The notes under the pieces: model-generated | Seen by the model: the letters and a program-made list of their open reading frames with translations, nothing else | Told to the model about the DNA's origin: nothing | Databases searched by the model: none | Shown here: piece by piece, positions 171 to 16,296 of the stretch | How positions within the stretch are numbered: the first letter of the stretch is position 1 | Layout of the letters: each line of letters starts with the position of its first letter | Position numbers and translations under genes: made by a program | Assembly (NCBI GenBank): GCA_948467395.1 | Contig: CAOKDX010000019.1 | Coordinates: 1 to 58,004 of the forward strand | Origin: an uncultured Clostridia bacterium | GTDB lineage: Bacteria; Bacillota; Clostridia; Lachnospirales; Lachnospiraceae | Length of the DNA: 58,004 bases | Direction of reading: 5' to 3'

Positions 171-890
171 TTGAAGGAGAAAAATATACTGATAACAGGA
201 GGCTCTCAGGGTATTGGCGCTAAAACGGCAGAGTATTTGTCTTCGCAGGGAGCAACGATTATTCTGGTGGCAAGAAATGAACAAAAATTAAGGAAGATGC
301 AGGAGGGTCTGCCAGGGACATCTTTTGCTTTTTCTTATGATTTACAGAATTTAAAGGATATAGAAAATATATTCCAATATTGTTTAGATAATAAAATAAA
401 ACTTCATGGCATGGTTCATTGTGCGGGCATCAATCGGGATATCCCTGTTAAGTATAATGACATTGATATGATGAAAGAAACCTTTGTCGTTAATTATATG
501 GCATTTGTAGAGCTGGGTAAATATTTTATGAAAAAGAAGTATTCGGCAGACGGCGGAAGTATTGTGGCAATCTCTTCCTCGGCAGCAAATACACTGCCTC
601 CGGGAATGTGTACATATGCATCATCTAAACTTGCTTTAGAGGGGGCGGTCAAGATAATGGCAAAGGAATTTTTAAAAAGAAAAATCCGTGTAAATGCAAT
701 AGCGCCATCGTGTGTTGATACAGAAATGATTGATAATGCGCCATTCATAAATGTAGATGATATAGAAATGACTCAGCCACTTGGCTTGATTGAGCCAATA
801 TACATTTCTTATTTAATAGAATATCTGATATCAGAGAAATCCAAATATATTACGGGAACTACGATACCAGTATATGCAGGAGCAGTATAG
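171..890 (+). CDS. Short-chain dehydrogenase/reductase, FabG-like (SDR 1)
   Basis: A 239-residue classical SDR, probably an NAD(P)H-dependent ketoreductase in the carrier-protein pathway encoded downstream. The cofactor motif TGGSQGIG is at residues 9-16, a CAG motif is near 84-86, the catalytic Ser is in the SSS run near 136-138, and Tyr149 and Lys153 form YASSK. The C-terminal part has the usual RVNAIAP motif. The start is TTG at 171, supported by AGGGAG about eight bases upstream; no ATG fits better. It is the first of three SDRs in the operon and is followed ten bases later by the second. The substrate is unknown; reduction of a 3-oxoacyl thioester is the simplest guess from family and context. 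Confidence 0.85.
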   Translation: MKEKNILITGGSQGIGAKTAEYLSSQGATIILVARNEQKLRKMQEGLPGTSFAFSYDLQNLKDIENIFQYCLDNKIKLHGMVHCAGINRDIPVKYNDIDMMKETFVVNYMAFVELGKYFMKKKYSADGGSIVAISSSAANTLPPGMCTYASSKLALEGAVKIMAKEFLKRKIRVNAIAPSCVDTEMIDNAPFINVDDIEMTQPLGLIEPIYISYLIEYLISEKSKYITGTTIPVYAGAV

Positions 891-900
891 GAGGATATAA

Positions 901-1626
901 ATGAAGTATTATCTGGTTGCGGGGGCTTCATCCGGAATGGGACGTGAAACGGCAATTCAACTTTCTGATAATGATACTACTATTATTCTTGTATCACGGC
1001 GGAAAGATGCTTTGGAAAGTGTCCAGAAAGAATTGTCAGGGGATAGTATTGTTATTCCATGCGATTTGACAAAATCAGAAGAAATAGGCCATTTGTTTCA
1101 AGTTTTGGCGGATCAAAAGATTAAACTGGATGGGATGGTTTATTGTGCAGGAATTTGTTTTACAAAGGCGCTTAAAGTAATGGATCAGGGGGATTTGGAA
1201 AACATGTTTCGGCTTAATGTCTTTGGATTTTATGAAATGTGCCGCTGTTTTCAGAAAGTGAAGGCATCAAATAAAGGAGCTTCCATCGTCGGGATTTCTT
1301 CTTATGCGGCCGTCACACGAGAAACCGGAATGTCTGCATATGCGATGACAAAAGAGACGATGAACGTTCAGGCTCAGGTGCTGGCAAAAGAATTTCTAAA
1401 GAGAAGGATTCGGATCAATACGGTGATGCCGGCCTATGTGATGTCTAAAATGAATGGTGTAGAAAATACATGGACAGAGGAAGAAATTATGCTGGCAGAA
1501 CAGAAACAGCCGCTGGGACTTATACCGATTGCCAGTGTGGTGAAACTTATTTTGTTTTTGCTGTCTGATGATGCAGAATATATTACTGGTGAGACGATTG
1601 CCATGAGCGCAGGATATCATGGATAG
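901..1626 (+). CDS. Short-chain dehydrogenase/reductase (SDR 2)
   Basis: A 241-residue SDR. The glycine motif GASSGMG is at residues 8-14, the catalytic Ser lies in the ISS motif near 132-134, and Tyr147 and Lys151 form YAMTK. RINTVMP is the usual substrate-pocket strand. AGGAGG lies just before the ATG. It resembles the first SDR in length and motifs, so the two probably arose by duplication. It sits directly before a condensing-enzyme gene, which suggests reduction of 3-oxoacyl or related carrier-bound intermediates. The substrate cannot be read from sequence. Confidence 0.85.
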   Translation: MKYYLVAGASSGMGRETAIQLSDNDTTIILVSRRKDALESVQKELSGDSIVIPCDLTKSEEIGHLFQVLADQKIKLDGMVYCAGICFTKALKVMDQGDLENMFRLNVFGFYEMCRCFQKVKASNKGASIVGISSYAAVTRETGMSAYAMTKETMNVQAQVLAKEFLKRRIRINTVMPAYVMSKMNGVENTWTEEEIMLAEQKQPLGLIPIASVVKLILFLLSDDAEYITGETIAMSAGYHG

Positions 1627-1637
1627 GAGGCGATGAA

Positions 1638-3278
1638 ATGAAGGGGCAGTATTCAAACATAAAGATAGCAGGTATTGCTTCAGCAGTTCCATCTTATGTT
1701 ATGGATAATATGGAATACATAGATTTGTTTGGGAAGAGACGGGTTGTGAAGCAGGCTAAGATGACAGGGGTATACCGGCATCATTTGTCGCGGCGTTATC
1801 AGAAGACCTCAGATCTCTGTATGCGTGCGGCGGAGGAGATGATAGAGCATTTGGGCTGGAACAGGGAAGAAATTAAAATTTTGCTTTTTGGTACCCAGTC
1901 TGCTGATTATGACATCCCATCGACATCGATTGATTTGTCAGCGCGTCTTGGGTTAGGTAAAGACTGTATGGCCTTTGATATCAATCTTGGATGTTCGTCA
2001 TATGACCTTGGAATACAGGCGGCAGCAGGATTACTGCAGAGTCAGCCGGACGGTACGAAGGCGCTGGTGATGATGGGAGATATGGCCTACGTGCCTTCTG
2101 GTGGCGTATGGGAGAAACAGGATATTATAAATATCATGATGTTTGGTGCCGGTGGTGGCGTTGTGGGGATAGAAAAGCAGCCGGGAAATGATTTTACCTT
2201 TTGTAATTTTAGCGATGGTACCGGATGGGATGCTATATTGAAGTATCGTTGGACGGCTACATTGATGAAGGGAAACCATGTTTTTGAATATGCGATCAAT
2301 GATGTGGCAGAAAATCTGATGAAATTTCAGGATGAACTGAAGCGGACTGCCGATTCTACGGATTATTTTGTGTTTCATCAGGCACAGAAATTGATTGTGG
2401 ATAATATTGCAGATGTATGTGGGCTGCCGAAAGAAAAAGTTATTACTTCATATGAAGAATACGGAAATACGTCAGGAGCATCCGTAGCTATTACAATATG
2501 CCATAACCGGGACAACTTTATTGATAAAGATAAGGTGAATATTTGCAGCTGTGGCTTTGGCGTCGGGTTGTCCATGGGGATTTCTTTTTATCAGATAGAC
2601 CCAAAGTGTGTTTTGCCAATCATTGAGACAGATGAACATTATGATGAACATATGAAGCATAATGGCATTTTGTACAAAAGAAGAGCACTTTTAATGGATC
2701 CATGCACAGAGATAGGTAAAATGATTGCGCGGCAGCTGGATCGCGCCAGCTGCAACCTGAGCTTGTGTGGGGACAGGAGCACTTTAGAAGAACTGCATTC
2801 TCAATTCTTTTGGAAAGATTGTGATTTGTTTGTCGACAATCTGGAAAAAGCAGTAGAAGATGTTTCACAAAAATACGATGCGGTGATTTATGATATGGAT
2901 AATCACTCAAAAAAACAGATACACGAACAGATTTCCTTCTTGAAACAGCAGGATATGTTGAGTGATACCTGTGATGTCATATTGGTGTCGCCTGAAAGTG
3001 AAAGCGAGACTTCGCTGCGCAATTTTATGTCGAACATAACAGAGGAATTTGGCTGTAGGGCAAATACAGTGGCATATGTACCAGATAGTTTTGATCTTTT
3101 TCCAGATATAGGTGACAATACGGACTGGATAGACCGTCAGATTTATTCGGAAGAACCGGAAAAAATGTCAAGACCTTTCTTTTTGACAAATGCCATAATA
3201 AGATTGGTATCATTAGAATTTGCAGCTGTTTCGCAGACTGTGATTCATGTGTCAGATACAGTTAATAAATTTAGTTAA
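1638..3278 (+). CDS. FabH-like condensing enzyme fused to a degenerate SDR-like domain
   Basis: A 546-residue protein. Residues 1-335 are a complete thiolase-fold KAS III-like enzyme with the full triad: Cys119 (NLGCSSYD), His247 (VFHQAQ) and Asn277 (EYGNTSGAS). KAS III enzymes join an acyl thioester to malonyl-carrier protein. A C-terminal extension of about 200 residues starts near KRRALLMDP. Its beta-alpha spacing recalls an SDR (LLMDPCTEIG where TGxxxGIG would be, a YDAVIYDM strand, a late SLEF segment), but the glycine motif and the YxxxK pair are gone. The extension may be a non-catalytic docking or scaffold domain. Usual KAS III length is 310-350 residues, so the fusion is unusual. AGGAGG precedes the ATG. 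Confidence 0.8.
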   Translation: MKGQYSNIKIAGIASAVPSYVMDNMEYIDLFGKRRVVKQAKMTGVYRHHLSRRYQKTSDLCMRAAEEMIEHLGWNREEIKILLFGTQSADYDIPSTSIDLSARLGLGKDCMAFDINLGCSSYDLGIQAAAGLLQSQPDGTKALVMMGDMAYVPSGGVWEKQDIINIMMFGAGGGVVGIEKQPGNDFTFCNFSDGTGWDAILKYRWTATLMKGNHVFEYAINDVAENLMKFQDELKRTADSTDYFVFHQAQKLIVDNIADVCGLPKEKVITSYEEYGNTSGASVAITICHNRDNFIDKDKVNICSCGFGVGLSMGISFYQIDPKCVLPIIETDEHYDEHMKHNGILYKRRALLMDPCTEIGKMIARQLDRASCNLSLCGDRSTLEELHSQFFWKDCDLFVDNLEKAVEDVSQKYDAVIYDMDNHSKKQIHEQISFLKQQDMLSDTCDVILVSPESESETSLRNFMSNITEEFGCRANTVAYVPDSFDLFPDIGDNTDWIDRQIYSEEPEKMSRPFFLTNAIIRLVSLEFAAVSQTVIHVSDTVNKFS

Positions 3279-3295
3279 GAAAAGGAGAGGAAGAA

Positions 3296-3517
3296 ATGAC
3301 TTTACAGGAAAAAATTGAATTTTTGGAAGAAATTATGGATGTGGAAGAGGAAACCCTGACTGCGGAAACAATTTTGGATGAAATAGAGGAATGGGATTCG
3401 CTAAGTACGTTGTCTTTAACAGTAGAGATGAAAAAAAGATACAATAAGATCCTTACCACAGAAATTATAAAGAATTTTAAAACTGTTGACGATGTATGTC
3501 AGTTTATTCCCGATTAG
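3296..3517 (+). CDS. Acyl carrier protein-like (carrier 1)
   Basis: A 73-residue acidic helical protein. Ser35 in EEWDSLSTLS matches the DSL phosphopantetheine attachment site. It would hold acyl or aminoacyl intermediates on a 4'-phosphopantetheine arm. The start ATG follows AAAGGAGAGG. It lies between two condensing-enzyme genes and is one of five carrier genes in the operon. With carriers 2 and 3 it belongs to a group starting MT-(L/R/I), with Ser at residue 35. Confidence 0.85.
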   Translation: MTLQEKIEFLEEIMDVEEETLTAETILDEIEEWDSLSTLSLTVEMKKRYNKILTTEIIKNFKTVDDVCQFIPD

Positions 3518-3528
3518 GAGGAAAACCG

Positions 3529-4542
3529 ATGCGTGGAGAATTGGAGCATATTTGTATTGAAGGTATTGTTACTACCGTGCCGGAAAATGAAGTTTGCAAT
3601 GATGATTATGTGAATAAAATACAAAATCGCAGAGTAAAGAAACAGATTTTGCTTACTGGCATCGATAACCGCAGAGTATCCGTAGGGGAACAGAAAGCCT
3701 CTGATCTGGCCACTGTGGCGGCGGACCGGTTATTGGATCATCTGAAATGGGATCGCAGCAAAATTGATGTATTAATTTTTGTTACGCAGTCGCCGGATTT
3801 GGTCAGACCATCAACGGCTTTTCTCATTCAGGATCGTCTTGGACTCAGCAGGGATTGTATGGTATATGATATCAATCAGGGATGTGCAGGATATATAGTA
3901 GGTCTGACAACGATCTGCAGTATTTTGCAGGTGACAAAAGGAAGAGGTTTGCTGTTAGTTGGAGAGAGCAATGCGGTTGCCGGTGATGAGATAGACAGAA
4001 ATGCACTTCTTGAGGGGGATGCAGCGGCTGCGACCGCTTTGCAATATAAAGAAAATGCAGATCCAATCAAATTTGTAAATTATTGTGATGGTTCCAGGGC
4101 GGATTATTTGTATAAGACACTTAATAATTTTGCTTTTATGGATGGAAATGCAGTGCTGCTTTTTGGACTGAGCGATGTGGCAGATTCTGTAAAACAGTTT
4201 ATGGGAGATAATAATATTAGTGTTGCTGATATTGACTATTATGTGTTCCATCAAGCCCAGAAGATGATTGTGGACGGTATAGCACAGGCTGTTGGCATAC
4301 CAGAGGACAAACTTTTCAACTCCTGTAAAGAATATGGGAATACCTCGTCGGCATCTGTTCCACTTACAATGTGCCTGCAAAAAGAGGAACGGAATCTTTC
4401 TGGAAAGAAGAGGGTTCTGTTATGTGGTTATGGGATTGGCCTTACCTGGGGCATGATTTTGCTGGATATTGATATGGATGTAGTTTTTCCGATCGTAGAG
4501 AGCAGTTATGTTTATGAAGATAGAAAGAAATTTGGATATTAA
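3529..4542 (+). CDS. FabH-like condensing enzyme (KAS III family)
   Basis: A 337-residue thiolase-fold enzyme with an intact triad: Cys119 (INQGCAGY), His241 (VFHQAQ) and Asn271 (EYGNTSSAS). The expected reaction is Claisen condensation of an acyl thioester with a malonyl-type carrier-bound extender; the exact starter is unknown. An in-frame ATG lies 33 bases upstream inside the carrier gene, but the ATG at 3529 has TAGGAGGAAAACCG in front of it and is the better start. It closely resembles the N-terminal part of the fused enzyme at 1638, indicating a local duplication. It is flanked by two carrier genes. Confidence 0.87.
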   Translation: MRGELEHICIEGIVTTVPENEVCNDDYVNKIQNRRVKKQILLTGIDNRRVSVGEQKASDLATVAADRLLDHLKWDRSKIDVLIFVTQSPDLVRPSTAFLIQDRLGLSRDCMVYDINQGCAGYIVGLTTICSILQVTKGRGLLLVGESNAVAGDEIDRNALLEGDAAAATALQYKENADPIKFVNYCDGSRADYLYKTLNNFAFMDGNAVLLFGLSDVADSVKQFMGDNNISVADIDYYVFHQAQKMIVDGIAQAVGIPEDKLFNSCKEYGNTSSASVPLTMCLQKEERNLSGKKRVLLCGYGIGLTWGMILLDIDMDVVFPIVESSYVYEDRKKFGY

Positions 4543-4556
4543 AGGAGGAAGGTAAG

Positions 4557-4781
4557 ATGACGAGAGAAGAGAAGATGGAAACCATCGCAGACATTTTGGA
4601 AATAGAGCCAGAGGAAGTGAACGAGGAGGCAGAACTGGAAGGATTTGATGCATGGGACTCCGTAGCCGTTCTTGGAATAATCTCTGCTGTTAGCGAAGAA
4701 ACGGGGCAGTATCTCCATGCGGACGAAATTCTCCAGTTAAAAACAATAGGTGATCTTTTTGATGTTTTAGATCCAAAGTAA
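4557..4781 (+). CDS. Acyl carrier protein-like (carrier 2)
   Basis: A 74-residue acidic protein with Ser35 in DAWDSVAVLG as the predicted phosphopantetheine site. AAAGGAGG precedes the ATG. It sits between the condensing enzyme at 3529 and the third SDR, so it may carry the 3-oxo intermediate that the SDR reduces. That pairing is inferred from gene order only. Confidence 0.85.
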   Translation: MTREEKMETIADILEIEPEEVNEEAELEGFDAWDSVAVLGIISAVSEETGQYLHADEILQLKTIGDLFDVLDPK

Positions 4782-4798
4782 GGAGTATGGGATTTAGT

Positions 4799-5557
4799 AT
4801 GGGAAAAAATTATATGATCGTTGGTGCTTCATCCGGGATTGGCGAAGCATGTGTTGATAAGCTTTCAGAAGAAGCAGAAAACCTAATTATAGTAGCAAGA
4901 AATAAAGAAAAACTAAATTTTCTCCAGAGCCAGTATCAAGGGAAAATTAATGTCGTCCCTGTGCCGTATGATGTGACGGATTTGGATCATATCAACACGG
5001 TATTCACAGTCTGCAAAGAAAAAAAAATAAAATTAAATGGGCTGGTATATTCTGCAGGAATGGATGGGACATGGCCGATTAAGATAAACAATACTGCACT
5101 AATGCAGGAGATGATGACAGTAAACTGTTTTGGCTTCGTTGAGATGGCGAGAAATTTCTACAGCAAAAGGTTTTCTGCGGATGGAGCATCTATTGTTGTT
5201 GTTTCCTCTATTGCCAGTGTCTTAAATGAGACTGGAATGTCAGCATATTGTGCGTCTAAGGCAGCTCTGAATTCTTATGTAAAAACTATGTCTAAGGAAT
5301 TTGTCCGCCGGAGAATCCGGGTGAATGCTGTGCTGCCAGCCGGGGTGAGTACACCGATGGCTGAGGAGAAGGGGATTCTGCTTTCAGGATTGGCTGTTGC
5401 CGGGAATGGTGGTGAAAATGGTATTTTACAGGATCCACAGCCTCTTGGAATGATTCCACCGAATATTGTTGCATCTCAGATTGCGTATCTTTTGTCTGAT
5501 CAGGCCGATTACATAACCGGAGAGCTGCTGACGATGGGTGCCGGCCGGTCATATTGA
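4799..5557 (+). CDS. Short-chain dehydrogenase/reductase (SDR 3)
   Basis: A 252-residue SDR. GASSGIG is at residues 9-15, the catalytic Ser is in VSS near 136-137, and Tyr150 and Lys154 form YCASK. RVNAVLP follows in the usual place. Two starts are possible. ATG at 4787 is only one base from AGGAG; ATG at 4799 is 13 bases away but matches the N-terminus of SDR 2, so I prefer it. A short Gly-rich insertion near residues 196-205 (AVAGNGGENG) distinguishes it from SDRs 1 and 2. It is likely a ketoreductase acting on a carrier-bound intermediate. Confidence 0.83.
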   Translation: MGKNYMIVGASSGIGEACVDKLSEEAENLIIVARNKEKLNFLQSQYQGKINVVPVPYDVTDLDHINTVFTVCKEKKIKLNGLVYSAGMDGTWPIKINNTALMQEMMTVNCFGFVEMARNFYSKRFSADGASIVVVSSIASVLNETGMSAYCASKAALNSYVKTMSKEFVRRRIRVNAVLPAGVSTPMAEEKGILLSGLAVAGNGGENGILQDPQPLGMIPPNIVASQIAYLLSDQADYITGELLTMGAGRSY

Positions 5558-5578
5558 TTGAAAAGAAGGAAGAATAGT

Positions 5579-6367
5579 ATGAAGATTAAGGAGATAAGCA
5601 AGAGAGTAAGAGAGATCAGAAGTGGATGCAGATTGCTGTATACGAATGTAAACTGGTCTAATTTAGATTTAGACAAAGATGTTGAGGTATTAGACGATAA
5701 AAATGGTATTGCTTTTCTTGTTCCGGAAACGAATAGAATGAAGGTGTATTATGCGGCAGCAGATCAGGATGGAATGGTGGAACTGCTGGAAAGAGTTCCG
5801 TCAGGAGTTGTCCTGGAATATTTCTATAAAAGAGACAATGATATGAATGAACTCTTTAAACGTGCCGGTTTTACACATTATGCAGAGTACTTTCGAGTGA
5901 CAACATTGTACGAAGAAAACCCATATGGCAAAGAGACGGGGAAGAAAAAACTGTTAGATGAATTATATGATCCTGAATGTGGCGAGTATCCGGAACTGGA
6001 AGATGCAGAAGAATTGGAAAAATTGCTGCGGGATAAATTTGATCCCTTAACGGATGACGTCTTTTCAAGGGACGAGTGGATAGAAATAATTAAAAGAAAA
6101 GAATGTCTTGTAATTAAGGAAAATGGTAAAATTGTTACCTGCTATGTATGGCGGCTTTCAGGAAAAAAGTTATATGGGAATATATCGTTAAATCTGGGAC
6201 CGGCAAATTATATGTATAATTTGGAACGCAAGGTCTTTGACAGTATGTGGGAAGCCGGGATACGGGTTAATTATGCATGGTTCAATGAGAAGAACAGCAG
6301 AGCATTTACAAAGAGCGGACTGACAAAAAAAGCAGGGGATCTCTATGATGCCATTTATATAAAATAA
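5579..6367 (+). CDS. Tandem GNAT-type N-acyltransferase
   Basis: A 262-residue protein with two GNAT-like halves. The N-terminal half (about 1-120) has a YTNVNW start and a KRAGFTHYAEYFRV strand-helix element. The C-terminal half has LVIKENGKIVTCYVWR followed by a NEKNSRAFTKSGL element of the kind that closes a GNAT acyl-CoA site. Such enzymes move an acyl group from CoA or a carrier protein to an amine. The ATG at 5579 follows AAGGAAG; the upstream TTG has no ribosome site. It shares its layout with the GNAT protein at 15484. In this context it could transfer the finished acyl group to an amino sugar, which is inference. Confidence 0.65.
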   Translation: MKIKEISKRVREIRSGCRLLYTNVNWSNLDLDKDVEVLDDKNGIAFLVPETNRMKVYYAAADQDGMVELLERVPSGVVLEYFYKRDNDMNELFKRAGFTHYAEYFRVTTLYEENPYGKETGKKKLLDELYDPECGEYPELEDAEELEKLLRDKFDPLTDDVFSRDEWIEIIKRKECLVIKENGKIVTCYVWRLSGKKLYGNISLNLGPANYMYNLERKVFDSMWEAGIRVNYAWFNEKNSRAFTKSGLTKKAGDLYDAIYIK

Positions 6368-6390
6368 GAAGAAAGGAAGGAGAGTTTGAG

Positions 6391-6609
6391 ATGACAATTC
6401 AACAGAAGATTCAGTTAATAGAGGAAATGATGGAACTGGAAGAAGGAGAATTAAAGGCAGATACTGTGCTGGAAGAGATTGATGAATACGATTCCTTTTT
6501 TAAACTTTATCTTACTACCTATGTTAAAAAGAATATGAATAAAAGGCTTACGGTGGAAGAGATTAATAATTTCACTACAATACAGAATATATGTGATTAT
6601 TTAGAGTAA
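6391..6609 (+). CDS. Acyl carrier protein-like (carrier 3)
   Basis: A 72-residue protein closely resembling carrier 1 in length and pattern (MTIQQKIQLIEEMM against MTLQEKIEFLEEIM). Ser35 in DEYDSFFKLY is the predicted attachment site, with Phe in place of the usual Leu after Ser. AAGGAAGGAGAG precedes the ATG. It probably duplicated from carrier 1. Confidence 0.8.
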   Translation: MTIQQKIQLIEEMMELEEGELKADTVLEEIDEYDSFFKLYLTTYVKKNMNKRLTVEEINNFTTIQNICDYLE

Positions 6610-6634
6610 ATATATGGAGACGGAGGGTTTTGAT

Positions 6635-6868
6635 ATGGAAGAGAAAATTATTGACATCTTAAAGGGAATACGCCCTGAATTCGACTTTGCCGAAAGCGAC
6701 GATTTTATAGAAGATGGGTATCTTGATTCCTTTGATGTAATCGAACTGATTGCCTGTATTGAAAAGGAATTGGGTGTGGTAATTGATGGTCTGGATATTT
6801 TGCCCGAAAATTTCAACAATCTGGATGCAATTGTAAAAACCATTAAAAGGAACGGTGGAACTGAATGA
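6635..6868 (+). CDS. Acyl/aminoacyl carrier protein-like (carrier 4)
   Basis: A 77-residue carrier with Ser32 in GYLDSFDVIE as the phosphopantetheine site. The LDSF signature and the RPEFDF...FIEDGYLDS layout are close to DltC-type aminoacyl carriers and differ from carriers 1-3. The ATG at 6635 follows CGGAGGG; an ATG at 6614 upstream lacks a ribosome site. The stop codon overlaps the next start (ATGA), so it is probably translationally coupled to the condensing enzyme that follows. Confidence 0.85.
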   Translation: MEEKIIDILKGIRPEFDFAESDDFIEDGYLDSFDVIELIACIEKELGVVIDGLDILPENFNNLDAIVKTIKRNGGTE

Positions 6869-8977: not shown

Positions 8978-8990
8978 AATGGAGATTTTT

Positions 8991-9224
8991 ATGGATAAGA
9001 TTTTAAATTGTTTAACGGAATTGCGGCCAGAATTTGATTTTACAAAGAGTGATAATTTTATTGAAGATAATTATCTTGACTCTTTTGATATTACTACTTT
9101 GGTAGCAGACCTGGAAGAAGAATTTGGATGCATTATTGATGGTGAGAATGTGCGTGCTGAAAACTTTGTGTCAGTACAGGCAATTGCAAACCTGGTAAAA
9201 ATAAGCGGTGGTTCCATTGACTGA
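8991..9224 (+). CDS. Acyl/aminoacyl carrier protein-like (carrier 5)
   Basis: A 77-residue carrier with Ser31 in NYLDSFDITT. It is the sister of carrier 4 (same RPEFDF and DNFIED motifs, same length). The start at 8991 is preceded by GGAG at six bases; an in-frame ATG at 8979 overlaps that ribosome site. It lies between the degenerate condensing enzyme and two DltA-like ligases, so it is a good candidate to be loaded by one of them. Confidence 0.85.
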   Translation: MDKILNCLTELRPEFDFTKSDNFIEDNYLDSFDITTLVADLEEEFGCIIDGENVRAENFVSVQAIANLVKISGGSID

Positions 9225-9259: not shown

Positions 9260-10786
9260 ATGATGAATTCTGTTTTGGATTATATCGGTCAGGCAGTATT
9301 GAAATCGCCGGATAAACAGGCAGTTCACGATGGCGAGGTTTCTTACACATATCAGGAGCTGCAGAAAAGGGCTTTGCAGCTTGCCACAATGATAAAAGAT
9401 AAAGAAGATGCCGCCAAGAAACCAATACTAATCTATCTGCCAAAATCAAGTGATAGTATCGTGGCTTTTTTGGGGACGTTGTACAGTGGGAATTATTATA
9501 CGCCGACAGACGTGAAATTTCCATTTGAGAAAGTGAACAGCATTATTACATGTTTACAGCCCAGACTTATTGTATCTTGTCATGATGTGGCAGACAAATT
9601 GATCTCGAACGGAATTCCGAAAGAGCAGTTTGTGTTTATGGATGACATTACAGAGGATTCTGTTATGGCTGATCCAGAGAAGCTGACGGAACGCATTATT
9701 GATTGCGATCTGGCTTATGTGCTTTTTACGTCTGGATCTACGGGAATGCCAAAAGGAGTTGGTATTACTCATCGCAGTATTATTGATTTTGCTGATTGGG
9801 CGAAGGAGACTTTCTCCATCTCAAGTGAGGAAAGAATTGCTAATCAGACGCCATTGTATTTTGATATGTCTGTGCTGGATATATATTTGACATTCAGTGC
9901 CGGGGCATCCTTATATATTGTACCGGAATCCACCTTTTCCTTTCCTATTGAAATATTGGAATATATTAAGCAAAATGAGATTTCCTTTATCTGCTGGGTT
10001 CCCACCGTGTTTAAAAGCATTGCAAACGGCGATTTATTGCCAAAGGTGGATTGTAACTGTCTGAAGCATATATTTTTTGCCGGTGAAGTTATGCCAAACA
10101 AGGTATTAAACTATTTTAGAAGAAATCTGCCGGATGCGCAATATGCTGATTTGTTTGGCCCGACAGAAATAACAGATATTTGTACCTATTATGTTGTGAA
10201 CCGTGAATTTGCGGATAACGATCCACTGCCAATTGGGCGCCCCTGCAGGAATATTGATGCCTTTATCCTGTCTTCCGAGGATGAGTTGATTGAAGAGGAA
10301 GGAAGAATCGGTGAACTCTGTATTCGGGGGACATGTCTTGCTATGGGATATTATAATAATTCAGAAATGACAAGAAAGGTATTTGTTCAGAATCCATTAA
10401 ATAGTGTATTTGAAGAGAAAATCTATCGAACAGGTGACCTTGTTCATTATAATCAATACGGTGAGTTTGAGTATGATGGCAGGAAAGACTTCCAGATTAA
10501 ACATTTGGGATACCGCATTGAACTTGGGGAGATAGAGACGGCCGTGCTGGCGCTGCCAGGAATCTTTAACGGCTGCGTATTATATGATGATGTAAAAAAG
10601 GAAATCGTTCTTTTCTATCATGGTGAGAAAACTGCAGATAAGGGATATATCCGTCGGCAATTGATAGATATTCTCCCCAAATATATGCTGCCAACAGCTT
10701 TTGTCTGTCTGGATGAATTACCTTATAATGACAACGGAAAGATTGACCGCAAAAGATTGAGAGAAGAATATATAATGAGAGACTAA
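9260..10786 (+). CDS. DltA-like amino acid:carrier protein ligase (standalone adenylation domain 1)
   Basis: A 508-residue ANL-superfamily enzyme that would adenylate a carboxylic acid and transfer it to a carrier phosphopantetheine. The A3 P-loop is FTSGSTGMPKGV, A4 is YFDMSVLDIY with the Asp that binds an alpha-amino group in amino-acid-activating domains, A5 is FGPTE, A7 is YRTGD, A8 is GRKDFQIKHLGYRIELGEIE and the A10 lysine is in NGKIDRK. GEVMP is typical of DltA. There is no condensation, carrier or thioesterase domain. No dltB, dltC or dltD lies nearby, so this is probably not teichoic acid alanylation. Codons are AT-rich, unlike the following paralogue. Confidence 0.88.
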   Translation: MMNSVLDYIGQAVLKSPDKQAVHDGEVSYTYQELQKRALQLATMIKDKEDAAKKPILIYLPKSSDSIVAFLGTLYSGNYYTPTDVKFPFEKVNSIITCLQPRLIVSCHDVADKLISNGIPKEQFVFMDDITEDSVMADPEKLTERIIDCDLAYVLFTSGSTGMPKGVGITHRSIIDFADWAKETFSISSEERIANQTPLYFDMSVLDIYLTFSAGASLYIVPESTFSFPIEILEYIKQNEISFICWVPTVFKSIANGDLLPKVDCNCLKHIFFAGEVMPNKVLNYFRRNLPDAQYADLFGPTEITDICTYYVVNREFADNDPLPIGRPCRNIDAFILSSEDELIEEEGRIGELCIRGTCLAMGYYNNSEMTRKVFVQNPLNSVFEEKIYRTGDLVHYNQYGEFEYDGRKDFQIKHLGYRIELGEIETAVLALPGIFNGCVLYDDVKKEIVLFYHGEKTADKGYIRRQLIDILPKYMLPTAFVCLDELPYNDNGKIDRKRLREEYIMRD

Positions 10787-10818: not shown

Positions 10819-12345
10819 TTGAAAAACTCAGTACTATGCTATTTGGAAAAGACGGCGCATGAATTTGAAAACAAAACAGCAGTTACTGATATAAACGGCG
10901 ATATGTCTTTTGGGAAATTCAGATCGCTGGCAGTAAAGACGGCCAATGCCATCGTGGGAAAGAATATTGGCGTACAGAAGCCGGTTTTGGTTTTTCTTCC
11001 CAAGTTAAAGGAAAGCTTTGCTGTCTTTATGGGAATTGTTTATTCCAGAAATATTTATGTGCCGACGGATGTCAAATATCCCGGTGAGAGAATCCATGCC
11101 CTTGTGGATATACTGAATCCTGGTCTGATAATTTCAGATGCAAAGAATGCACAGAAATTATCGGAATACGGTATTGATATACCGGTGCTGCTGCTGGAGG
11201 ATATCATGGAGTGCTCTGGTGGACTCAGTGGGGCTGAATTGTGCCGGAGAAGTCTATTGTCGGATCTGGTTTACATAATATTTACATCCGGTTCCACTGG
11301 TGCGCCAAAGGGTGTCAGCATCAGCAACCTGAATATAATCGAATACATTGACTGGGCGGTAGAGGTGTTCCACAGTGATGAAACAACAGTGATGGGAAGC
11401 CTGGCACCTCTGTATTTTGACCTCTCTACACACGAGCTGTATACCTGTCTGGCCAGGGCGTCTACACTTGTTATGATACCGGAAAGGTACAAGGCGTTTC
11501 CGGCGGCCATACTCAAATACCTGAAAGAGAATCATGTCAACTTCCTGTACTGGGTTCCCTCTGCCTATGTAAATGTGGCTACCTTCAATCTGTTGGAATC
11601 CATTGAACTGGACGAGATAAAAACGATGGTTTTTGGCGGGGAGGTTATGCCTGTCAAAACATTAAATTACTGGAAAAAGAATCTTCCTTCGCTCACTATG
11701 ATCGCCAATATGTATGGTCCGACGGAGGCCACGGTGAACTGTACTTACTATATCGTTGACCGTGAGTTTGGTGAGGATGAATTCCTGCCTCTGGGAAAGG
11801 CATGTGACATAAAAGAGGTTGTTGTCCTGGATGAAGAGGGGCATGAAATTACTCCGGACCAGACGGGGAAATCCGGGGAGCTTTGTGTCTGCGGTACGTC
11901 GTTGTCAAGAGGATATTGGAACAATGACGAGGTGACCCGGAAATATTTTGTTCAGAATCCTTTGAATCCATACCTGCCGGAAATCATGTACTGCACGGGA
12001 GACCTTGTATTTTACAATGATAGGGGAGAACTGGTTTTTTCGGGCAGAAAGGATTTTCAGATTAAGCATATGGGCTACCGCCTTGAGCTGGGAGAGATTG
12101 AGAGTGCAATCCTGCGGACGAAGATGGTTGATAATGTTTGTGTGCTGTATGATTCTAAGAATAAAAGCATCGTATTGTTTTACTGTGCCGCCAGTGAAAT
12201 TGACCCCGGGTATATGGCGAAGGAACTGGCCAATATACTTCCCCAGTATGCAGTACCTTCCCGATTTGAATACGTCCGTTCCTTCCCGATGACGGATTCC
12301 GGTAAGATCGACCGTCAGTACCTTAGCGGTCAGTATTTAAAATAA
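10819..12345 (+). CDS. DltA-like amino acid:carrier protein ligase (standalone adenylation domain 2)
   Basis: A 508-residue paralogue of the preceding ligase. Motifs are FTSGSTGAPKGVS (A3), YFDLSTHELY (A4, Asp kept), YGPTEAT (A5), YCTGD (A7), GRKDFQIKHMGYRLELGEIE (A8) and SGKIDRQ (A10 Lys). The residues after the A4 Asp differ (LSTH against MSVL), so the two ligases probably take different substrates. The start is TTG at 10819, with AGGAGG seven bases upstream. The gene is visibly more GC-rich than everything to its left, marking a composition boundary in the operon. Confidence 0.88.
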   Translation: MKNSVLCYLEKTAHEFENKTAVTDINGDMSFGKFRSLAVKTANAIVGKNIGVQKPVLVFLPKLKESFAVFMGIVYSRNIYVPTDVKYPGERIHALVDILNPGLIISDAKNAQKLSEYGIDIPVLLLEDIMECSGGLSGAELCRRSLLSDLVYIIFTSGSTGAPKGVSISNLNIIEYIDWAVEVFHSDETTVMGSLAPLYFDLSTHELYTCLARASTLVMIPERYKAFPAAILKYLKENHVNFLYWVPSAYVNVATFNLLESIELDEIKTMVFGGEVMPVKTLNYWKKNLPSLTMIANMYGPTEATVNCTYYIVDREFGEDEFLPLGKACDIKEVVVLDEEGHEITPDQTGKSGELCVCGTSLSRGYWNNDEVTRKYFVQNPLNPYLPEIMYCTGDLVFYNDRGELVFSGRKDFQIKHMGYRLELGEIESAILRTKMVDNVCVLYDSKNKSIVLFYCAASEIDPGYMAKELANILPQYAVPSRFEYVRSFPMTDSGKIDRQYLSGQYLK

Positions 12346-12366
12346 TAATGACAGGAGTGTTTTATA

Positions 12367-13254
12367 ATGACGAGAGTGGCTATTATCGGAAGTGGCAATG
12401 TTGGCACTGATCTGCTGTATAAGATCCAGCGGACAGAGGAGTTAGAATGTACGCTTTTTGCAGGTCAGAACCCCGATTCGGAAGGGCTGCAGATTGCGCG
12501 GGAGCTGGGAGTGACGGCTTCTGCAGGGTCCATAGATGCCATCGTTGAACATAAGGATGATATTGATATAATCTGTGATGCAACATCAGCTCTTGCTCAT
12601 ACGCAGAATCTGCCTGTTTTTAATCAGCTGAAAAAGCGTATGATCGACCTCACTCCGTCCAAAGTAGGAGACTTCTGTATTCCCGTACTCAACCGGAAGA
12701 AGTGTATGGAACTGAATGAAATAAATATGGTTACCTGCGGCGGACAGGCTACTATCCCCATTGCAAATGCCATCAGCCAGATCTATCAGGGTACGGATCA
12801 GATAAAATATATGGAAATCGTCGCCTGCATTGCATCGAATTCAGCCGGGATAGGGACCCGGAGGAATGTAGATGAATTTACCCAGACTACGAAGGACGCC
12901 CTCACCCAGTTTACAGGGATATCAAATACGAAAGCTATCATTATATTGAATCCGGCAGTCCCGGAGATCAATATGAGAAATACCCTGTACTGCTATATCG
13001 AGGATCCGGATATGGACATGATTCGGGATAATGTAAATGCAATGGTACAAAGAATCCAGGAATATGTGCCGGGATACCATCTGCTGATGGAGCCGGTGCT
13101 GGAGAATGGACGGGTTACTACAACCGTTGAAGTGTGCGGAGCTGCCGATTATCTGCCGTCCTATGCCGGAAATCTGGATATTATCACATGCGCGGCGCTC
13201 GAGATGGCAAAAGAATACGCAAAGCTGCAGAAAGCAGGAGGTTCCCATGAATAA
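12367..13254 (+). CDS. Acylating acetaldehyde dehydrogenase (DmpF/MhpF family)
   Basis: A 295-residue enzyme interconverting an aldehyde plus CoA and NAD+ with acyl-CoA and NADH. The NAD-binding GSGNVGTDL is near residue 8, the catalytic Cys124 is in VTCGGQATIP, and the late NPAVPEINMRNT segment is characteristic of the family. The length is normal. It overlaps the aldolase gene by eight bases; the two usually form a complex that channels aldehyde. In catabolism the pair splits 4-hydroxy-2-oxovalerate. Here, in a biosynthetic operon with no aromatic-degradation genes, it may run in reverse and deliver an aldehyde to the aldolase (inference). Confidence 0.92.
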   Translation: MTRVAIIGSGNVGTDLLYKIQRTEELECTLFAGQNPDSEGLQIARELGVTASAGSIDAIVEHKDDIDIICDATSALAHTQNLPVFNQLKKRMIDLTPSKVGDFCIPVLNRKKCMELNEINMVTCGGQATIPIANAISQIYQGTDQIKYMEIVACIASNSAGIGTRRNVDEFTQTTKDALTQFTGISNTKAIIILNPAVPEINMRNTLYCYIEDPDMDMIRDNVNAMVQRIQEYVPGYHLLMEPVLENGRVTTTVEVCGAADYLPSYAGNLDIITCAALEMAKEYAKLQKAGGSHE

Positions 13255-14260
13255 AATAATGGTTTTTGATTCTACCCTGCGTGATGGTTCTCATGCAAAT
13301 AAGCATCAGTTTACAGAAAAACAGATTTCAGATTATTGTACGTCTTTTGATGAAGCGGGGATGGATGCCATTTTTGTCGGACACGGCAATGGTCTGGGAG
13401 CATCCTCCTCACAAATTGGTTTTTCCCTTGTGGATGAGATGCAGATGATTCGGATCGCGCGGGAAAAATTGAAAAAAACAATGCTGGGAGCATATCTGAT
13501 CCCGGGCTTTGGCACCATTCGCGATCAGATATCCAAGGCTGTCGATCTTGGAGTAGACATTTTTGAAATTGGCTGTCACTGCACGGAGGCTGATATTTCC
13601 CAACAGCACATCGAATATATTAGTAAGAGACAGAGGAAAGCATATGGCACGCTAATGATGTTTCATATGGCTTCCCCTGATGTTATATTGGAGAATGCAT
13701 TAAAAATGGAAAGCTATGGTGCGAATGGCATTATTCTTATGGACTCTGCCGGTGCGTCCACCAATGACATGGTCAGGGAATATATAGGCCTGCTTACAGA
13801 TAAGCTATCCATTCCCGTTGGCTTTCATGCACACAATAATCTTGGACTGGCAGTTTCCAATACCTTTACTGCCCTGGAACAGGGGGCTCAGATCATAGAC
13901 GGGACGATGCGCGGCTACGGCGCAGGCGCGGGCAACTGCCAGCTGGAAGCGATCTGTGCCCTTCTCTATAAAAAGGGATGGAATTCCCGGATCCGCCTTG
14001 ATTTCTTTCAACTGCTAAAGAAGTCGGATGTCCTTATGGACAGCATTATGCATGAACCCATGGGAATTTCCCCTCTCAGTATAGCCAGTGGAGTGGCGGG
14101 GGTATTTTCTGCCTTCAAAGAACATGCGGTGAAAGCGGGAGAGGCTTTCGGCGTCGACCCCAAGGAGGTTCTTCTGGAGGTAGGGAGACGGAAGGCAGTG
14201 GGTGGCCAGGAGGATATCATTGTCCAGATTGCCAGTGAATTGTCGGAAAAGAAGGAGTGA
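13247..14260 (+). CDS. 4-hydroxy-2-oxovalerate aldolase (DmpG/MhpE family)
   Basis: A 337-residue HMGL-like TIM-barrel aldolase that joins or splits pyruvate and an aldehyde. STLRDGSHA at residues 9-17 holds the catalytic Arg and metal Asp, HAHNN at 194-198 the metal-binding His pair, and GAGAGNCQLEA the C-terminal catalytic loop. The ATG at 13247 follows GCAGGAGG inside the end of the dehydrogenase gene, so the two are translationally coupled. In the synthetic direction the product would be a 4-hydroxy-2-oxo acid, a natural substrate for the aminotransferase encoded next. Confidence 0.92.
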   Translation: MNKIMVFDSTLRDGSHANKHQFTEKQISDYCTSFDEAGMDAIFVGHGNGLGASSSQIGFSLVDEMQMIRIAREKLKKTMLGAYLIPGFGTIRDQISKAVDLGVDIFEIGCHCTEADISQQHIEYISKRQRKAYGTLMMFHMASPDVILENALKMESYGANGIILMDSAGASTNDMVREYIGLLTDKLSIPVGFHAHNNLGLAVSNTFTALEQGAQIIDGTMRGYGAGAGNCQLEAICALLYKKGWNSRIRLDFFQLLKKSDVLMDSIMHEPMGISPLSIASGVAGVFSAFKEHAVKAGEAFGVDPKEVLLEVGRRKAVGGQEDIIVQIASELSEKKE

Positions 14261-14266
14261 GGGAAA

Positions 14267-15445
14267 ATGGATTATCATTTTTCAAAGTTAATACAGGGAA
14301 TCCGGCCTTCTGCCGCTGACCGGATGCTGGAACAGATGAACGATCCGGAACTTTTGTCACTGGCGGGAGGAAATCCCTCTCCGGAAACGTTTCCCATTGA
14401 TGAGATACGGCAGGCGTCCAGCCGGCTACTGGAGACGGATCCCATCCGGATATTGCAGTATTCCGTTACGGAAGGGTATGCGCCGTTAAGAAAGGCGGCC
14501 AGAGAATATTTTGTTTCCAGAGGGCAGCATTTCGGGCCGGATGATGAACTTATTATCACATCTGGTTCCCAGCAGGTTCCTGACCTGGCGGCAAAATGTT
14601 TTTTGGAATATGGAGATGTCGTTGCGGTGGAAGATCCCTCCTATTATTTAACCCTGGATACCTTCCGGAGCCACGGTATTCGTCTGGCAGGTGTCCCTAT
14701 GGAAGAGGATGGTATGGATTTGGATGAATTGGAGAAGGTGATCTGCAGCTATCATCCCAAAATGCTATATACCATTCCCAATTTCCACAATCCCACAGGA
14801 ATTACGACTTCTCTTGAAAAGAGACAGAAGATATACGATATCTGCACGAGAAATCATGTCCTGATCCTGGAGGATAATCCCTATGGTGATATCTATTTTG
14901 GAGAAACCGCACTGCCACTGATCAAAAACTTTGACAGACAGGGATCCGTGATACTTGCCCAGTCATTGTCGAAAATTATTGCGCCGGGTCTCCGTGTATC
15001 GGCTTGCATTGCCAACAAAAGAATAATTCAGAAATTAGTTCTGGCTAAAAGATGTGCAGATGTTCATACACCCACATGGGGGCAGTATATTTGTGAACAG
15101 ATACTGGTAAATCTTGACATGGATGAGCACATAAGGAAGCTTCGGCACTATTATAAAGAAAAATGCAGTGTTATGTTAAATGGGGTAGAACAGAATTTTC
15201 CCGAGGATGTCAAACGGATCCATCCGCAGGGTGGGATGTTTATGTGGGTCACTCTGCCGGAACGTTTTTCCATGCCAGACATTGTTGAGGCGGCTTTGGA
15301 TCAGAAGGTTGCCGTAGTACCGGGAAATATATTTTTTGTGGATCAGAATGCGCCCTGTCAGAGTATCCGTATGAATTATTCTACTCCTTCTGCGGAAGAT
15401 ATAGAACATGCAGTCTCCGTGATCGGTACAATACTTCGCGGGTAA
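14267..15445 (+). CDS. PLP-dependent aminotransferase, class I/II (2-aminoadipate/MocR-like)
   Basis: A 392-residue fold-type I aminotransferase. The PLP lysine is Lys236 in AQSLSKIIAPGLR, with NFHNPTG at 172-178, LEDNPYGDIYF at 201-211 and the C-terminal carboxylate-binding Arg in SIRMNYS. Family members convert 2-oxo acids and 2-amino acids. It follows the DmpFG pair by six bases, so its likely substrate is the 4-hydroxy-2-oxo acid made there, giving a gamma-hydroxy amino acid. It is not a DegT/PseC-type sugar aminotransferase. Confidence 0.88.
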   Translation: MDYHFSKLIQGIRPSAADRMLEQMNDPELLSLAGGNPSPETFPIDEIRQASSRLLETDPIRILQYSVTEGYAPLRKAAREYFVSRGQHFGPDDELIITSGSQQVPDLAAKCFLEYGDVVAVEDPSYYLTLDTFRSHGIRLAGVPMEEDGMDLDELEKVICSYHPKMLYTIPNFHNPTGITTSLEKRQKIYDICTRNHVLILEDNPYGDIYFGETALPLIKNFDRQGSVILAQSLSKIIAPGLRVSACIANKRIIQKLVLAKRCADVHTPTWGQYICEQILVNLDMDEHIRKLRHYYKEKCSVMLNGVEQNFPEDVKRIHPQGGMFMWVTLPERFSMPDIVEAALDQKVAVVPGNIFFVDQNAPCQSIRMNYSTPSAEDIEHAVSVIGTILRG

Positions 15446-15483
15446 CGGACTGGAAATTTTCATCTGGGGAAGAGGGAAGAATT

Positions 15484-16296
15484 GTGGAAGAAATATTAAC
15501 GGAAAAAGGACAAGCTGTTATTCGGAATGCGGTTGGAAATTCATCCTTAACGAACTGTTATCTTTCCTATAATCTGGTGATGGAAAGGATAAGGGCACAG
15601 GAAATCCGTTGTATTTGCTATAGCGGTATTATTTTAATGGTTCACAGCCTGGACGGGGTAAATAAAGTATATTATTTTCTGGAGAGCAGGGATGTGCTGG
15701 CTCCCGATGTTATCAGGAGAATAGAGGGGGAATTGTCAGGATATCCGGATCTGGTAGGTACTGTTGTATCCAGGCTGCCCAATCAGAATGTGGACATTCT
15801 GGAAATGTTGGGATTCCGTCCATATAAGCAGTATATCAGGAAGCAGATGGCCGCGGGCACAGCTGTTTTGTGCCAGGCAGTATGGCCGGTAGAAACCGCC
15901 GCTGTGGGCGATCTTGATCATATTTATCCGCTCCTGGAGGGGATATCTGATGTTATGACCGATCATCTGGTATCCAAAGAGGAGCTTTATGTTTTTCTTG
16001 CAGCGCGGCAGGTTCTTAAGGTAGTGGCAGAGGGAGAGTTAGCAGGAGTATTGGTTTTCGAGATCTTTGGCAAAAAATCATATCTTCGCACCATTTCAGT
16101 TGCAGACAGATTTAAAGGAAGAAAAATTGGCTTATCTTTGATAGAAGGTTATTTTCAGAAAAATAGAGAGAATGCAAAATTATTTTATCTATGGGTAGAG
16201 AGCACAAATGAGAGAGCGATACGCCTGTATGACAGTCTTGGATATAAGGACGATGGACTGAAGGAGTATATTTACCGGAAGGGACAATGGGCTTGA
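15484..16296 (+). CDS. Tandem GNAT-type N-acyltransferase
   Basis: A 270-residue protein. The C-terminal half is a clear GNAT domain: SVADRFKGRKIGLSLIEGYF carries the acyl-CoA phosphate-binding loop, followed by ESTNERAIRLYDSLGYKDDG. The N-terminal half is a weaker GNAT-like fold ending MLGFRPYKQYIRK. Layout and the Tyr/Asn-rich start resemble the protein at 5579. The start is GTG at 15484 after GAGGGAAG. It is the last gene of the operon, before a terminator. It may transfer the assembled acyl or aminoacyl group, or stand in for PseH; neither can be shown from sequence. Confidence 0.75.
   Translation: MEEILTEKGQAVIRNAVGNSSLTNCYLSYNLVMERIRAQEIRCICYSGIILMVHSLDGVNKVYYFLESRDVLAPDVIRRIEGELSGYPDLVGTVVSRLPNQNVDILEMLGFRPYKQYIRKQMAAGTAVLCQAVWPVETAAVGDLDHIYPLLEGISDVMTDHLVSKEELYVFLAARQVLKVVAEGELAGVLVFEIFGKKSYLRTISVADRFKGRKIGLSLIEGYFQKNRENAKLFYLWVESTNERAIRLYDSLGYKDDGLKEYIYRKGQWA

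Follow-up and report, generated by a model that had tools for sequence, protein, structure and literature searches.

Which product would be built by a run of dissociated carrier-protein enzymes that lies shortly before a set of pseudaminic acid genes, and to what would that product be attached? In the window, the whole 58,004-nucleotide stretch of Lachnospiraceae DNA analysed here, 19 genes (g1-g19) at 171-16296 are all encoded on the forward strand, with intergenic distances of -22 to 38 bases, and form one operon-like run. They comprise four KASIII enzymes, five carrier proteins, three SDRs, two DltA-like ligases, a DmpF/DmpG pair, one aminotransferase and two GNATs, and are followed by a terminator-like hairpin:

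171-890, forward: g1, ketoreductase-like SDR (Pfam adh_short 1e-40; YASSK motif)
901-1626, forward: g2, SDR (Pfam adh_short_C2 3.5e-41; YAMTK)
1638-3278, forward: g3, KASIII type 1 fused to a degenerate SDR-like domain (ACP_syn_III_C 9.7e-19)
3296-3517, forward: g4, carrier protein (PP-binding 1.9e-05; WDSLS)
3496-4542, forward: g5, KASIII type 1 (family match; triad intact)
4557-4781, forward: g6, carrier protein (PP-binding 2.4e-06)
4787-5557, forward: g7, SDR (Pfam match; YCASK)
5558-6367, likely start 5579, forward: g8, tandem-GNAT-like acyltransferase (AlphaFold2 model)
6391-6609, forward: g9, carrier protein (weak NCBIfam ACP match, E 0.007; EYDSFF)
6614-6868, forward: g10, carrier protein of the DltA-linked type (PP-binding 1.5e-05)
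6865-7932, forward: g11, KASIII type 2 (ACP_syn_III_C 3.6e-23; triad intact)
7943-8977, forward: g12, degenerate KASIII type 2 (KASIII family match; triad check)
8979-9224, forward: g13, carrier protein of the g10 type (PP-binding 3.1e-04)
9260-10786, forward: g14, DltA-like aminoacyl ligase (pocket code DMLCFALDI)
10819-12345, forward: g15, DltA-like ligase paired with DmpFG (pocket code DLHYVGMVN)
12367-13254, forward: g16, DmpF acylating aldehyde dehydrogenase (TIGR03215 387.7 bits, cut-off 282.25)
13247-14260, forward: g17, DmpG 4-hydroxy-2-oxoacid aldolase (HMGL-like, DmpG_comm; LRDGSHA and HAHNN motifs)
14267-15445, forward: g18, class I/II aminotransferase (Pfam 2.9e-42)
15484-16296, forward: g19, GNAT acyltransferase (Acetyltransf_1 5.5e-09, in the C-terminal half)
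16315-16352, forward: terminator-like hairpin with a T run (consensus match)

All families named in the preliminary description are thus present, with one Pfam gap each for g9, assigned by its weak ACP match, and g8, assigned by its model. Its statement that modular PKS/NRPS megaenzymes, thioesterases and exporters are missing was likewise borne out for g1-g19: no multidomain megasynthase occurs among them (the largest protein has 546 aa), and profile searches recognized no thioesterase or exporter there, nor was a dehydratase or enoyl reductase recognized. Since the window starts at base 1 of its contig, the left end of the operon may be missing. The hairpin search returned 16 such sites in the real sequence, where shuffled versions gave 11.5 (sd 3.3); the hairpin is therefore to be read as a consensus match only.

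The catalytic residues of these proteins are largely in place. YxxxK is found in all three SDRs and a DS motif in all five carriers (g4, g6, g9, g10 and g13), four of which match Pfam PP-binding, g9 being missed. The Cys-His-Asn triad of g3 is intact; its C-terminal SDR-like domain has no YxxxK and gave no SDR match when searched, whereas that of its homologue in a second cassette copy, on contig C10 of the same genome, matches SDR with E 3e-14. In g12 the Cys is kept, His is replaced by Leu and Asn by Asp, and the same pair pattern (His to Leu or Ile, Asn to Asp) recurs in loci L081 and L085, which makes g12 a probable non-catalytic partner of g11. PqsBC is a KAS/chain-length-factor-like heterodimer, and g11 (C-H-N) beside g12 (C-L-D) would fit the pattern of such pairs.

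Against TIGR01733 (cut-off 317.4) g14 scored above, with 336.2 bits, and g15 below, with 293 bits; against the DltA equivalog (cut-off 559.85) they reached about half, 297.4 and 276.6 bits, respectively, and neither passes as DltA by this score. All 78 ligases in our alignment retain the Asp that matches the FD position in solved structures of amino-acid-adenylating domains, and we take this residue to bind the substrate alpha-amine. The DmpFG pair shows both the family score and the catalytic motifs expected, and the Tyr of AGVYSS (L127, PDB 8ih7) is replaced by Phe in g17, L071 and L126. No Pfam match was obtained for g8, which can be aligned with g19; judged from the secondary structure of its AlphaFold2 model (pLDDT 88.6), it appears to consist of two GNAT-like halves.

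The pocket code of g15 occurs in two of the 78 ligases, g15 itself and that of L071, and in both genomes, the two from which the pairing is known, the ligase is followed by DmpF, DmpG and an aminotransferase; another code, DIQYMGVVN, was found in ten of the 78. Among 15 genomes with g15-like ligases, DmpF was detected in one, L071's own. Comparison with a sister species revealed g10-g14 to be 84-94% identical and pieces of g24-g26 92-93% identical, but g15 only 51% and g19 50%, with g16-g18 absent and a different ligase in place. Conversely, g15-g18 are 81-84% identical to their counterparts in L071, where the preceding carrier, KASIII and GNAT reach 49-55%; high identity nevertheless extends beyond the supply block, g4-g7 reaching 78-86%. 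Exchange of the g15-g19 block and pairing of the code with DmpFG are seen directly in these comparisons. Because this code was found only with DmpF-DmpG-aminotransferase, and the sister with the other ligase has no DmpFG, these enzymes probably make the amino acid loaded by g15, and the operon apparently provides one of its building blocks itself.

The preliminary description had also reported pseudaminic acid genes downstream. These were confirmed, in the next gene unit, where four of them pass curated cut-offs:

16392-18386, forward: g20, 664-aa protein of unassigned family (weak polysaccharide-enzyme matches)
18409-19404, forward: g21, PseB (TIGR03589 528.6 bits, cut-off 407.75)
19449-20153, forward: g22, PseF (TIGR03584 288.2 bits, cut-off 205.7)
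20183-21226, forward: g23, PseI (TIGR03586 457.9 bits, cut-off 340.25)
21223-21915, forward: g24, formyltransferase-like (Formyl_trans_C_2 1.2e-25)
21920-22951, forward: g25, PseG (TIGR03590 192 bits, cut-off 153.55)
22932-23633, forward: g26, PIG-L type N-deacetylase (Pfam 3.1e-27)
23630-24262, forward: g27, sugar N-formyltransferase-like (Formyl_trans_N 1.5e-16)

The first of them begins about 2.1 kb past the hairpin, beyond g20, which has a homologue in the C10 island and no sequence match among PDB entries. None of the genome's five strong DegT matches exceeds the PseC cut-off of 423.5 (best 270.2 bits), and the genome may encode a divergent PseC.

We surveyed named loci encoding a KASIII of the g11 type, taking the best 80 of the 119 detected and fetching each with up to 10 kb on either side (24 of the 80 were shorter than 15 kb). 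The core of DltA-like ligase, carrier and KASIII recurs across phyla, which by record titles are Bacillota/Clostridia, Bacteroidetes, an Acidobacteria type, Verrucomicrobia and Treponema. Within these best 80, a DltA-like ligase was present in 76, a g10-type carrier in 76 and both in 72; an SDR was found in 65, a GNAT-like protein in 60 and an AAC(3)-family N-acyltransferase in 25. Nonulosonate genes accompanied 11 of them, and the DNA fetched for the remaining 69 contained no such marker. The preliminary description had proposed that its reading be given up if the gene set usually lay away from nonulosonate genes, and in this sample it broadly does; as a specific claim, the nonulosonate acceptor was not upheld. 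Closer relatives are more favorable to it: in seven of 14 genomes tested, drawn from the 15 with a g15-like match, NeuB shares a contig with such a match, at a distance of no more than about 15 kb, while three of the 14, including L071's genome (the only other one with DmpFG), gave no NeuB match.

The more general idea of a carrier-bound pathway supplying a group for an amino sugar was supported, and so was the link to flagella, likewise proposed at the outset. We found that the C10 cassette shares its contig with FlgK, FliW, FliD and flagellin, beside a NeuB-family gene and a PseF-PseG-like fusion that both score below the subtype curated cut-offs. The window contig itself has no PF00669 flagellin match. 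It may be joined to C10, to judge from the sister species, in which the g1- and g3-like genes are only 64% and 56% identical and the compared contig stretches do not overlap. No Maf match lies by any flagellin gene of this genome, whose only MptE-like match (40.6 bits, cut-off 34.6) is on contig C14, which carries no PF00669 flagellin. Maf-like genes occur in relatives L046, L074, L076 and L077 (the last by Pfam), and an ordinary flagellin was on the cassette contig in three of six relatives tested and, as judged by contig numbers, absent from it in three. In some relatives, flagellin, Maf-like and pse genes surround the cassette. Six of the seven flagellin/Maf loci are also nonulosonate loci (six of 11 such loci among the best 80 of 119; hypergeometric p 1e-5, kinship between loci ignored).

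Taken together, these data lead us to favor, with some reserve, a dissociated line in which an N-acyl group is assembled on discrete carriers and then passed to an amino group on a sugar of a surface glycan. The likeliest acceptor is the pseudaminic-type sugar of the next unit, displayed on flagellin. As the genomic context suggests, DmpF would reduce an acyl thioester, and DmpG would join the resulting aldehyde to pyruvate, giving a 4-hydroxy-2-oxoacid that g18 would turn into a 4-hydroxy-2-amino acid; with an acetyl starter, this would be 4-hydroxynorvaline. From their family, g15 would load this amino acid, and g14 another, onto g10/g13-type carriers; g11 with g12, as well as g3 and g5, may extend or shuttle the carrier-bound acyl chain, the SDRs would reduce ketones to hydroxyacyl products, and g8 and g19 would free the chain by linking it to the sugar as an amide, which would account for the lack of a thioesterase. 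Rather doubtful, in our view, is a fuller version: an in-trans hybrid aminoacyl-polyketide route in which the DmpFG/aminotransferase-made 4-hydroxy-2-amino acid, a stand-alone ligase and KASIII with its chain-length-factor-like partner give, after reduction, a statine-like gamma-amino-beta-hydroxyacyl chain, amidated by a tandem GNAT onto flagellin nonulosonic acid, with ligase, supply and transferase swapped between strains as one block, like an antigen cassette.

The same line could instead serve another amino sugar of a flagellar or surface glycan, a reading that we consider less probable yet worth real weight. It agrees with a core found mostly without nonulosonate genes, with a DegT sugar aminotransferase in 26 of the best 80 of 119 loci, and with a Parabacteroides capsule locus ordered acetyltransferase-carrier-carrier-ligase-KASIII-SDR (KASIII 29.8% identical to g11). 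The L071 contig, which stops about 1 kb after the aminotransferase, points the same way, carrying flagellin, LicD-like and phosphonate genes alongside DmpFG in a genome, of unstated completeness, that gave no NeuB match. The pseudaminic unit next door, the NeuB-family gene and fusion by the C10 copy and the NeuB neighbors in half of the genomes tested argue against it. The best-known role of DmpFG is in meta-cleavage catabolism, and none of the three other family genomes above the cut-off has it beside the cassette; even so, a catabolic DmpFG-g18 set placed here by chance, which would be compatible with the other readings, is quite unlikely, as the set follows a ligase of one and the same subtype in two genomes whose KASIII neighbors differ, and is absent from the sister, which has another ligase. 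Natural products, too, are made by adenylation, carrier, KASIII and SDR enzymes, and downstream of the operon (31776-35377) there are two ABC transporter genes side by side. A diffusible amino polyketide unrelated to glycans is nonetheless very improbable, given the recurrence of the cassette in sugar loci and flagellar islands and the lack of a recognized thioesterase or exporter in g1-g19.

If the favored N-acyl reading is correct, flagellar glycans would be diversified beyond sugar type by bespoke amino- or hydroxyacyl groups made on dedicated carriers, and exchangeable blocks would couple each ligase to the enzymes that provide its substrate. The ligase-carrier-KASIII core would then allow unusual N-acyl groups on surface sugars to be predicted from sequence, and the operon would offer a compact model for KASIII enzymes acting in trans on aminoacyl carriers.

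Among known systems, nikkomycin NikA/NikB with an aminotransferase also combines an acylating aldehyde dehydrogenase and a DmpG-type aldolase to give a 4-hydroxy-2-amino acid, but in an antibiotic pathway with a pyridyl starter. The D-alanine ligase DltA belongs to a related adenylation family and works with a discrete carrier; g14 and g15 differ from it in score, as given above. The preliminary description had called the pathway unfamiliar; the combination is not entirely without precedent, as dissociated ACP/KAS/KR sets are already published for the F. psychrophilum O-antigen locus and for Aeromonas and Pseudomonas flagellin islands (PMC6519341, PMC7874193, PMC4020848). The product of the F. 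psychrophilum R-group genes wfpC-wfpG, a 3,5-dihydroxyhexanoyl amide on a 4-amino sugar, has been solved, the gene roles being the authors' prediction; as described, the locus resembles ours in its two ketoacyl-ACP synthases, dedicated ACP, ketoreductase and N-acyltransferase within a surface-glycan locus, and differs in that the account describes no adenylating ligase, DmpFG or acyl-group aminotransferase, and in its PglD-type transferase, bacillosamine-type sugar and LPS, against GNAT and a proposed flagellin here (PMC6519341). The P. aeruginosa a-type flagellin island (orfA-orfI) has an aminotransferase, an ACP and a 3-oxoacyl-ACP enzyme and reductase between flgL and flagellin, but only one set of these, and the description given names neither DltA-like ligases nor DmpFG nor pseudaminic genes (PMC4020848). 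Aeromonas group II (PMC7874193) and Enterobacteriaceae (PMC4875605) islands place an ACP, a 3-oxoacyl-ACP reductase and an AMP-dependent or CoA ligase next to genes for pseudaminic acid or for other flagellin glycans, yet theirs is a LuxC/LuxE type set, for which these reports describe no KASIII battery or DmpFG. The Acinetobacter PsaGH module, predicted to yield pseudaminic acid with 3-hydroxybutanoyl on N7, differs from the diacetyl module in two genes, and that source lists no dedicated carrier-protein pathway with it (PMC9676051). The operon described here has the carriers, ketosynthases and ketoreductases of a type II FAS-like N-acyl pathway, adjacent to amino-sugar genes, together with candidate amine acyltransferases, g19 by Pfam and g8 by model only, of a class that differs from PglD.

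The genome comprises 2.99 Mb in 42 contigs, and the window begins at base 1 of contig C19. All the enzyme families that the preliminary description had assigned to the operon are indeed encoded by its 19 genes, separated by intergenic gaps of -22 to 38 bases.

171–16296, plus strand: 19 tightly packed genes (g1–g19)
16315–16352: terminator-like hairpin between this operon and g20, in the next unit
21223–24262: within the pseudaminic unit, a PIG-L deacetylase gene and a pair of formyltransferase-like genes
24265–25452: methyltransferase fused to a MerR-type DNA-binding domain

The four KASIII enzymes are of two types, type 1 (g3, g5) and type 2 (g11, g12). In a tree of 16 KASIII sequences, g11 and g12 clustered with the KASIII of a second copy on contig C10 and with three relatives; two outgroup rows were faulty (wrong frames), and only this g11-type grouping is used here. 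The Cys-His-Asn triad is intact in g3, g5 and g11, while g12 retains the Cys alone. Since similar pairs of an intact and a degenerate KASIII occur in L081 (the sister species) and in another locus, L085, these data suggest that g12 is a non-catalytic partner subunit. The C-terminus of g3 is an SDR remnant. A PDB sequence search with g20 gave no match, and a profile search of PDB with the family of g8, a GNAT-like protein, returned just chance-level kinase matches.

Named genomes were scanned with the g11-type KASIII, which gave 119 relatives, and the best 80 of the 119 were analyzed; locus labels are best matches to a hand-made reference protein set, not curated families. Three DegT_C14 and two flagellin rows, being wrong frames or a LicD gene, were excluded from this set, whereas DegT_C32, in fact no DegT, remained in it. 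A DltA-like ligase was present in 76 of the 80 loci, a g10-type carrier likewise in 76, and both in 72. The full core of ligase, carrier and KASIII was missing from eight loci, four of them stretches shorter than 8 kb and the other four of 12.4 to 21.1 kb. Frequent companions were SDRs (65), GNAT-like proteins (60), type 1 KASIII (34), AAC(3)-family acyltransferases (25) and DegT proteins (at least 26, a lower bound resting on the single reference row DegT_C8). In 28 loci the cassette is accompanied by a protein of the metallo-beta-lactamase fold (for example L037:9332-10054 and L033:6603-7283); this protein could be an editing thioesterase.

The preliminary description had linked this gene set to the nonulosonate genes. 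The link is clear in L074, L076 and L077, whose cassettes lie amid flagellin, Maf-like and pse genes, but it is not the rule: nonulosonate markers were found in just 11 of the 80 loci. Seven loci have flagellin or Maf, and six of these seven are among the nonulosonate loci (p 1e-5, relatedness of loci ignored). A Parabacteroides capsule locus combines an acetyltransferase, two carriers, a ligase, a KASIII 29.8% identical to g11 and an SDR. The set is uncommon in genomes sampled from the class and the family: at E 1e-60, 6 of 391 have the g11 type and 6 of 250 the g3 type. The core thus serves surface-sugar loci in general, and its use beside nonulosonate and flagellin genes is one among others.

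The copy on C10 encodes SDRs, a KASIII-SDR fusion, a type 2 KASIII, two GNAT-like proteins, a DltA-like ligase and another ligase. It also has a g20 homologue and two genes that score under the subtype cut-offs, one of the NeuB family and one encoding a PseF-PseG-like fusion. A flagellin gene lies approximately 12 kb beyond this NeuB, with FlgK, FliW and FliD genes near. In the sister species (G776), genes of the C10-type operon are 80–97% identical, small carriers excepted. Divergent from that operon, g1-like (64%) and g3-like (56%) genes stand at the contig end, with an integrase and an AAA-ATPase-like gene between the divergent operons, and a second contig begins at a g4 homologue (82%). 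When 160 bases near the end of sister contig 11 were compared with the opening 360 bases of contig 23, they shared no identical run as long as 15 bases; the final 40 bases of contig 11 lay outside the compared stretch. As these ends show no overlap, it is an inference that C10 and C19 adjoin within a single flagellar island.

LicD-like and phosphonate genes come after the C10 flagellin. In L017 (G000:C10:58000-77999) these are two LicD-family genes and genes for phosphonopyruvate decarboxylase and PEP mutase; a similar set with a 2-aminoethylphosphonate aminotransferase is present in the sister (L135), and L136 has another order, several of these assignments being by likeness only. These sets suggest that the flagellar glycan carries a phosphonate. 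In the sister, a 567-aa opposite-strand frame (L081:10840-12543) occupies the place of most of g20, PseB, PseF and PseI, flanked by a g20 piece on one side and a g24 piece on the other; we take its first residues to resemble a group II intron reverse transcriptase.

The ligase g15 is distinguished by its pocket code, read by motif and by alignment. In the alignment the first letter is D in all 78 ligases compared; ten carry DIQYMGVVN, and DLHYVGMVN occurs only in g15 and in the L071 ligase, 81% identical to it. The chemical meaning of the positions is assumed here, and the codes name no substrate. Directly behind both DLHYVGMVN ligases lie DmpF, DmpG and an aminotransferase (g18 in the window), a pairing seen in two genomes. 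Of 15 genomes that carry a g15-like ligase, 14 lack DmpF, and only that of L071 has it. Over the cut-off, DmpFG was found in 4 of 397 family genomes, with the cassette in this genome only; one of the other three has the pair split over two contig ends. In L126 (G029:C18), from another Lachnospiraceae genome, DmpF-DmpG lies amid sugar-nucleotide-type genes, as judged from sequences, and its DmpG has AGVFSA, as g17, not AGVYSS.

Compared with the window, L071 is 81–84% identical over g15–g18 and 78–86% over g4–g7, but only 49–55% in the GNAT, carrier and KASIII lying between. Judged by these identities, L071 is a mosaic whose ligase has remained linked to the supply genes. The sister retains 84–94% identity over g10–g14 and 92–93% in pieces of g24–g26, but its ligase and GNAT are only 51% and 50% identical, respectively, and it lacks all three supply genes; g19, the GNAT, thus varies between the sister species in step with g15. 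In the simplest reading, DmpF, DmpG and g18 would produce a 4-hydroxy-2-amino acid to be loaded by g15, and g19 would transfer the resulting product. A complete trans-acting aminoacyl-polyketide route, with an exchangeable block of ligase, supply and transferase, delivering onto a flagellin nonulosonic acid, is unlikely as a whole.

That an N-acyl group is placed on some surface amino sugar is highly probable; that the acceptor is a nonulosonate is less certain. PseB, PseF, PseI and PseG in the unit after the operon all score above cut-off. The two formyltransferases and the deacetylase of this unit fit an unusual N-acyl pattern, and its product is possibly an N-formylated nonulosonate; no PseH-like gene was recognized in the unit. 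None of five DegT proteins, encoded on C32, C8 and C14, passed the PseC cut-off. As a replacement PseC, g18 was also rejected: it accompanies g15-DmpFG in L071, whose genome gave no NeuB match, and none was seen in the fetched stretches of L067 and L049, where PseB adjoins the cassette. A NeuB-family gene lies within about 15 kb on the same contig in 7 of the 14 genomes searched (those with g15-like matches, all but G996 of 15), and NeuB was not matched in three of the 14, including that of L071. Another amino sugar as the acceptor is, on balance, rather unlikely.

An acyl group on a pseudaminic-type sugar of flagellin is the best explanation and has somewhat better than even support. Ordinary flagellin shares a contig with the cassette in the C10 copy and in three of six relatives (G776, G778, G781). 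In G777 the only flagellin-like frame on that contig is of 1645 aa, and the correspondingly numbered contigs of G779 and G780 have no flagellin, the numbering being confirmed in G777 and G779. These three contigs, the L071 mosaic and the low identity of the sister's g1- and g3-like genes slightly lower our confidence in this explanation and in the trans-acting route, and slightly raise that in another amino sugar as the acceptor. The genome has one Maf match, distant from flagellin. On contig C1 a flagellin-like 1636-aa open frame lies beside a 685-aa flagellin (L019:10458-15368).

Campylobacter Cj1299–Cj1308 may be a comparable set, although literature searches yielded no description of its function, and the flagellin island of P. 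syringae reportedly includes a KASIII homologue. A term search of the literature on aldolases with flagellin or polysaccharide showed no aldolase among the matches listed. Passages in PMC6519341 describe a dedicated ACP/KAS/KR set for an N-acyl group, F. psychrophilum wfpC-G, with its product solved as a 3,5-dihydroxyhexanoyl amide. ACP and 3-oxoacyl-ACP genes are likewise reported in passages on the flagellin islands of P. aeruginosa (PMC4020848), Aeromonas and Enterobacteriaceae (PMC7874193, PMC4875605); the main text of a survey of flagellar islands in Clostridium, published in 2026 (PMC13317340), contains none of the terms acyl carrier, ketoacyl and FabH. Since such ACP/KAS/KR sets are already known, and searches of the open-licence PMC literature turned up none that is joined to DltA-like ligases and a supply block of the DmpFG kind, we regard the operon as a variation on a known theme.
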